DNA from: Streptomyces sp. XY006
Lineage (GTDB): Bacteria > Actinomycetota > Actinomycetes > Streptomycetales > Streptomycetaceae
Length of the DNA stretch: 64,000 bases
Direction: 5' to 3'
Assembly: GCF_002237655.1 (NCBI RefSeq)
Contig: NZ_NOKT01000026.1
Location: forward strand, 62,001-126,000
Under the pieces are notes generated by a model. That model did not search any database, had not been told where the DNA came from, and worked only from the letters and a program-made list of their open reading frames with translations. Position numbers and translations under genes: made by a program. Positions within the stretch are counted from its first letter, which is position 1. Every line of letters begins with the position of its first letter. This document shows, piece after piece, positions 38,001-38,237 of this stretch.

Positions 38001-38237
38001 TCAGGGCGCCGGACGGTCCGAGGAGGAGCGGCCGGTGGCGCCGGGGTGGAGGAGAGGGATGGGCACGCCGGTCCGCACGGGCAGCCGGGGCGCCGCGTCG
38101 AGGGCCGGCACTTCCTCGTCGCCCACTAGCCGGACGTCGGTGGCGGCGTCGAACGTCTCCCCGTCCGGGCCGAACGGGCCGGAGGAGGTGCCGGCGGTGC
38201 CGGGGGTGACGACGGGCCGAACGCGCACGGCGCTCAC
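38001..38237 (-). pseudogene. Relic of an MBL-fold (S-formylmycothiol-type) hydrolase
   Basis: A 78-codon frame whose GTG overlaps the mscR stop (GTGA), in the slot where many actinobacteria carry a metallo-beta-lactamase-fold hydrolase. Its first half, with '[18 protein letters not shown]' and 'ALDAAP', resembles the N-terminus of those enzymes. The second half jumps to '[12 protein letters not shown]', matching their downstream '[12 protein letters not shown]' motif, then stops. The metal-binding HxHxDH region and the C-terminus are absent. I read this as an internally deleted, non-functional remnant. The likeness is from memory of the family, not from an alignment. Confidence 0.65.

Follow-up and report, generated by a model that had tools for sequence, protein, structure and literature searches.

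A 78-codon frame directly downstream of mscR in Streptomyces sp. XY006 is, judging from its alignments with intact relatives, very probably the pseudogene of an mscR-linked MBL-fold hydrolase; it is clearly a case of gene decay and not a new small gene, and as a pseudogene it is of an already known kind. The stretch of 64,000 nucleotides that was analysed (the window) lies on contig 18 of an 8.25 Mb draft genome in 73 contigs, and similarity searches returned Streptomyces species as the closest named relatives at its mscR locus. The GTG start of the frame overlaps the mscR stop codon, its own stop is TGA, and it sits between mscR and the gene that we label dmgdh:

38234..39322, minus strand: mscR, S-(hydroxymethyl)mycothiol dehydrogenase, intact (TIGR03451; Pfam ADH_N and ADH_zinc_N)
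38001..38237, minus strand: probable MBL-fold hydrolase pseudogene, 78 codons and stop, native start and stop kept (alignment with intact MBLs)
35476..37926, minus strand: dmgdh-like protein, a fusion of FAD oxidoreductase and folate-binding GCV_T domains, encoded by the adjacent downstream gene (Pfam)
34313..35464, minus strand: Rieske oxygenase subunit resembling glycine betaine monooxygenase GbcA, start not fixed (NF058607, Pfam)

The mscR product exceeds the NCBIfam equivalog cut-off of TIGR03451 (657.9 bits against 512.9). The Pfam domain order of the dmgdh-like protein is DAO, FAO_M, GCV_T, GCV_T_C, which we take to be that of folate-binding dimethylglycine or sarcosine dehydrogenases, hence the label. 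The GbcA-like protein matches Pfam Rieske and Ring_hydroxyl_A and reaches 215 bits with NF058607, below the curated cut-off of 670; further downstream, an aldehyde dehydrogenase resembling BADH reaches 593.5 bits, under its cut-off of 668.6. Because both matches fall below their cut-offs, amine catabolism is a likely role of the locus, not a proven one.

As reference for the frame we used the intact MBL at the orthologous place in Streptomyces lomondensis (L063:6083-6700, referred to as L063). Alignments with 21 intact MBLs of the orthologous locus and, at DNA level, with L063 revealed seven collinear blocks, comprising 69 codons including the stop; the start, a GATGRS.SDRP block and the native stop are among them, and the flanking mscR and dmgdh are common to both loci. 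Between the blocks, the net indels of the frame relative to L063 are +21, −3, −93, +3, −198 and −111 nt, all six of them multiples of three. The landmarks of the frame are as follows:

38205..38237, minus strand: what is left of the N-terminal end of the MBL, [11 protein letters not shown], 11 codons (first codon block against L063)
38184..38204, minus strand: 21-nt insertion relative to L063, exact limits alignment-dependent (DNA alignment)
38091..38102, minus strand: LDAA codons marking the junction left by the 93-nt deletion, in which THAHDDH was lost (alignment with L063)
38007..38042, minus strand: [12 protein letters not shown] block, flanked relative to L063 by net deletions of 198 nt before and 111 nt after

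The HxHxDH metal-binding motif is absent from the frame, the corresponding THAHDDH of L063 falling within the deleted 93 nt, and most of the MBL core seen in the intact orthologous proteins is missing as well. The frame thus shares with mscR-linked MBL hydrolases (PF00753; L063 and the genome's own L002:2577-3209) its position, the overlap with the mscR stop, the native stop and the seven blocks, but is 127 codons shorter than L063 and has lost THAHDDH, most of the core and any Pfam match. The Lactamase_B profile (PF00753) scores 71.4 bits with intact L063 and 110 bits with intact L002 and does not match the frame; no Pfam or NCBIfam family matches the frame at E ≤ 10, a search in which the HMMER filters drop most matches above 0.1. 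In a gapped alignment with the intact MBL from the second mscR pair of the genome, the frame scores 115.8, as against 62.8 for the best of 2000 shuffles, none of which reached the observed score. A preliminary description of this DNA had proposed an internally deleted MBL remnant lacking its metal centre, to be checked against full-length mscR-linked MBLs of other streptomycetes; the collinear blocks bear this out, and the shuffles argue against a resemblance due to chance.

That description had also considered a conserved family of 78-residue proteins. With the 311-base relic stretch as query against 392 genomes of the genus, the host included, the only end-to-end match among those listed was the genome's own; the next-best listed match, from a best-first search in which two candidates were scored per genome, covered query positions 56-151 only. 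An open frame of 78 codons whose start overlaps the mscR stop is what a new small gene, or a conserved small protein family unrelated to MBL, could present, but the block homology to MBL at the same locus and the want of an end-to-end relative among the matches listed from 392 genomes make such an origin vanishingly improbable.

A course of events can be proposed from these comparisons. The ancestral locus would have been arranged as mscR, MBL hydrolase and dmgdh; in the lineage of the window the MBL would have lost its function and shrunk by three large deletions together with small indels. The 93-nt deletion that took the metal-binding motif is exactly as long as the spacing of the two DAA-coding repeats in L063, which suggests a repeat-mediated mechanism; an obvious repeat was found at this junction only among the deletion junctions of the frame.

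Substitutions in the remaining codons are spread evenly. Over the 69 codons, the frame differs from L063 at 8, 10 and 11 first, second and third codon positions, respectively, 29 differences in total with a third-position share of 0.38; in the same codons, 23 intact relatives differ from L063 chiefly at third positions, with shares of 0.53-0.86 and a median of 0.67. Given 29 differences, the binomial probability of so flat a pattern is 0.0014 at the median control rate and 0.07 at the lowest. Fisher tests of the frame against single controls were significant for L187 (0.001) and not for L062 (0.11) or L193 (0.22). This pattern supports, without settling, a relaxation of purifying selection on the frame. 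The open frame itself is weak evidence, since 895 of 2000 shuffles of the gap, which is 76.6% GC, leave the frame open over 77 codons or more. Bacterial pseudogenes that arise by internal deletion are a known general kind, and the frame resembles them in its flat codon pattern, its deletions, their lineage-specific end points and the presence of an intact paralogue elsewhere; it differs from them in general in remaining open all the way between its native start and stop.

To place the frame among its relatives, loci were gathered by similarity to mscR, or to the end of mscR with the relic, which favours close relatives over a random sample; 90 of 392 genomes passed E ≤ 1e-180 and 34 of 394 passed E ≤ 1e-195 in the mscR searches. 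Requiring dmgdh within 2.5 kb after mscR, and removing loci identical around the mscR end, left 120 distinct loci. An MBL was called intact if its frame had 195-225 codons, carried the motif TH[AGS]H.DH and started no more than 25 nt before or 60 nt after the end of mscR; remnants were recognised among the other loci by a score of at least 6 bits with a profile of the intact MBLs. In the first 103 loci, the gap of each non-intact locus was shuffled five times where it measured 40 nt or more, and no shuffle scored above 2.0 bits. By these definitions the MBL is intact at 24 loci, a remnant can be recognised at 11 and 85 are without trace. Most relatives examined thus lack an intact copy here (96 of 120), and the loss is not peculiar to this genome. 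Among the loci counted as traceless are three possible further remnants: L071, at 3.6 bits, and L263 and L266, not detected by the profile and spotted in the GTGA frame only.

Comparison of the deletion end points, which the same description had suggested, found them to be lineage-specific, the relatives carrying differing remnants. An error of sequencing or assembly in an intact gene might be suspected in a draft genome of so many contigs; three large in-phase deletions with 29 substitutions in 69 codons are not typical errors, and relatives carry their own, different remnants, leaving this explanation extremely unlikely. As a single locus the decay is ordinary, but the series is unusually complete, the same gene at the same place being met intact, frameshifted, internally deleted, nearly erased and traceless. 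The earliest stage seen is a near full-length MBL (L257, genome G695) with a frame change near profile position 139. At L068, only 24 codons of the MBL are left, 11 residues from the N-terminus being fused in frame to 13 from the C-terminus. In a close relative (G197:C1:1561303-1562385; L186, L252), the mscR match is reported with one in-frame TAG.

The conserved reading phase invites a different interpretation, in which the short frame continues to be translated and selection preserves its phase, the frame serving as a coupling bridge over which ribosomes pass from mscR towards dmgdh or as a limit on polarity. Three observations would fit it: i) the native start and stop are kept in frame, ii) all six net indels are in phase, and iii) past a junction, seven of the ten scoreable remnants (the window's, L254, L068, L065, L069, L070 and L090) are in frame with the start that overlaps mscR, L074 being left out of this count as it retains the N-terminus only. 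The phased indels and remnants are also what selection to keep the frame would lead one to expect and count to that extent against a pseudogene. At an expectation of one third, seven of ten has a probability of 0.02, with the reservation that L065 and L179 are sisters and the events not all independent. However, in intact MBL genes direct repeats at least 60 nt apart are mostly in phase (65% of those of 5 nt and 77% of those of 8 nt; 65-77% for 5-8 nt), so that at a rate of 0.65 seven in ten is nothing remarkable (p = 0.51). An in-frame bridge maintained by selection was therefore largely rejected, because short repeats in phase would by themselves produce as many in-frame remnants. The flat distribution of differences over codon positions, the 85 of 120 loci without trace by the 6-bit test and the three out-of-frame remnants (L179, L257 and L028) likewise speak against translational maintenance, which we consider quite improbable. 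A pseudogene could have kept its frame open here because, with codon bias and a high GC content, deletions between short repeats tend to preserve the phase and because few stop codons occur at 77% GC. This tendency of short repeats to lie in phase in GC-rich genes cautions against taking a kept frame as a sign of function, for codon-phased repeats make decay resemble in-frame small genes.

The overlap of the frame with mscR carries no further weight for translation. The preliminary description had read the GTGA as a sign of kept translation or coupling; the overlap is indeed present and conserved, but it belongs to the end of mscR itself, which reads CTGTGA (last leucine codon and stop) in 100 of the 120 orthologous loci. 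Of the 24 loci with an intact MBL 22 have GTGA, as do 79 of the other 96, so that its persistence where the MBL has gone makes it no evidence of translation, and it does not favour a coupling bridge. Of the 68 traceless loci that have GTGA, 57 show a frame beginning there that continues for more than 250 codons, and in L018, L024, L025 and L026 this frame is the dmgdh protein itself; where the MBL vanished, dmgdh often starts at the GTGA of the mscR end.

Repeated loss of the MBL from one ancestral arrangement would be the simplest reading of the distribution over loci. A tree of mscR and the start of dmgdh (quick search, SH-aLRT only) requires 19 changes of the intact label, 14 of them forced by starred branches, and the nearest row to the window is L063, which is intact. 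This tree alone cannot tell gain from loss. The 24 dmgdh-linked MBLs form one side of a branch with SH-aLRT 100 among 91 MBLs, and their distances correlate with the mscR distances (Mantel r 0.71) and the dmgdh distances (r 0.46), with none of 2000 permutations as high in either case. Because the intact copies at the locus make up a single group and their distances correlate with those of mscR, repeated loss is favoured over repeated gain, which was set aside. The missing copies would accordingly be losses rather than genes never present, although some of the traceless far relatives may never have had the MBL. A missing MBL is not unique to the amine locus, because 34 of 101 mscR loci without dmgdh have no intact MBL directly after mscR and the other 67 do; of these 34, six end within 700 nt of mscR, and at L100 an MBL match starts 247 nt downstream. 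Five genomes (G064, G137, G318, G372 and G414) carry two mscR genes each, with 79-81% identity to that of the window, the second being neither dmgdh-linked nor followed by an intact MBL.

The preliminary description had read the mscR-MBL pair as broken, had suggested that another esterase may have taken over, and had proposed a search of the rest of the genome for a complete copy. Such a copy exists, intact, beside the second mscR on another contig (G000:C11:4626-6331), and no new esterase is required. The copy in the window could have become dispensable through this pair, whose MBL may serve both dehydrogenases, or through spontaneous hydrolysis of the formyl thioester. That the MBL hydrolyses S-formylmycothiol is suggested by gene order; among the titles and abstract openings found for the hydrolase, none ties an MBL to this compound. 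A passage of the review PMC8879981 describes spontaneous hydrolysis of S-formyl-MSH in Corynebacterium glutamicum, and the passage seen in PMC12914118 says merely that S-formyl-MSH is hydrolysed.

At this locus, then, the mscR partner looks dispensable. We surveyed MBL copies in 80 genomes with a dmgdh-linked locus, out of 86 from the mscR search at E ≤ 1e-180 (six were left out, as were genomes first met in the search at E ≤ 1e-195), and at least one MBL at E ≤ 1e-30 was present in 78. Three of the genomes searched (G054, G157 and G308) have the dmgdh-linked copy only, and in G313 the one MBL copy lies beside another mscR, on contig 103. By hand sorting, another MBL copy occurs in 14 of 17 genomes with an intact dmgdh-linked MBL and in 61 of 63 without one; a link between a missing dmgdh-linked MBL and the possession of another copy was not significant (Fisher p = 0.06). 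Nor does a second copy explain every loss, because two of the 80 genomes, G008 and G136, have a dmgdh-linked mscR and no MBL at E ≤ 1e-30 found anywhere in the genome; G008 has two mscR genes. We tentatively suggest, as a serious possibility that falls somewhat short of being probable, that in Streptomyces amine loci the MBL is dispensable and was lost many times, the hydrolysis of formyl-mycothiol being shared with one other MBL copy or needing no MBL.

The series of loci points to genomes in which the need for the MBL partner of mycothiol-dependent formaldehyde dehydrogenase can be tested. In the single-contig genome G136, one mscR reaches E ≤ 1e-100 (C1:805450-806532, dmgdh-linked, locus L285), and the MBL matches are distant only, the best at E 1e-24. 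If the suggestion above is true, this genome, in which the searches found a single mscR but no MBL of this family, would serve as a natural knock-out and a candidate for such a test.
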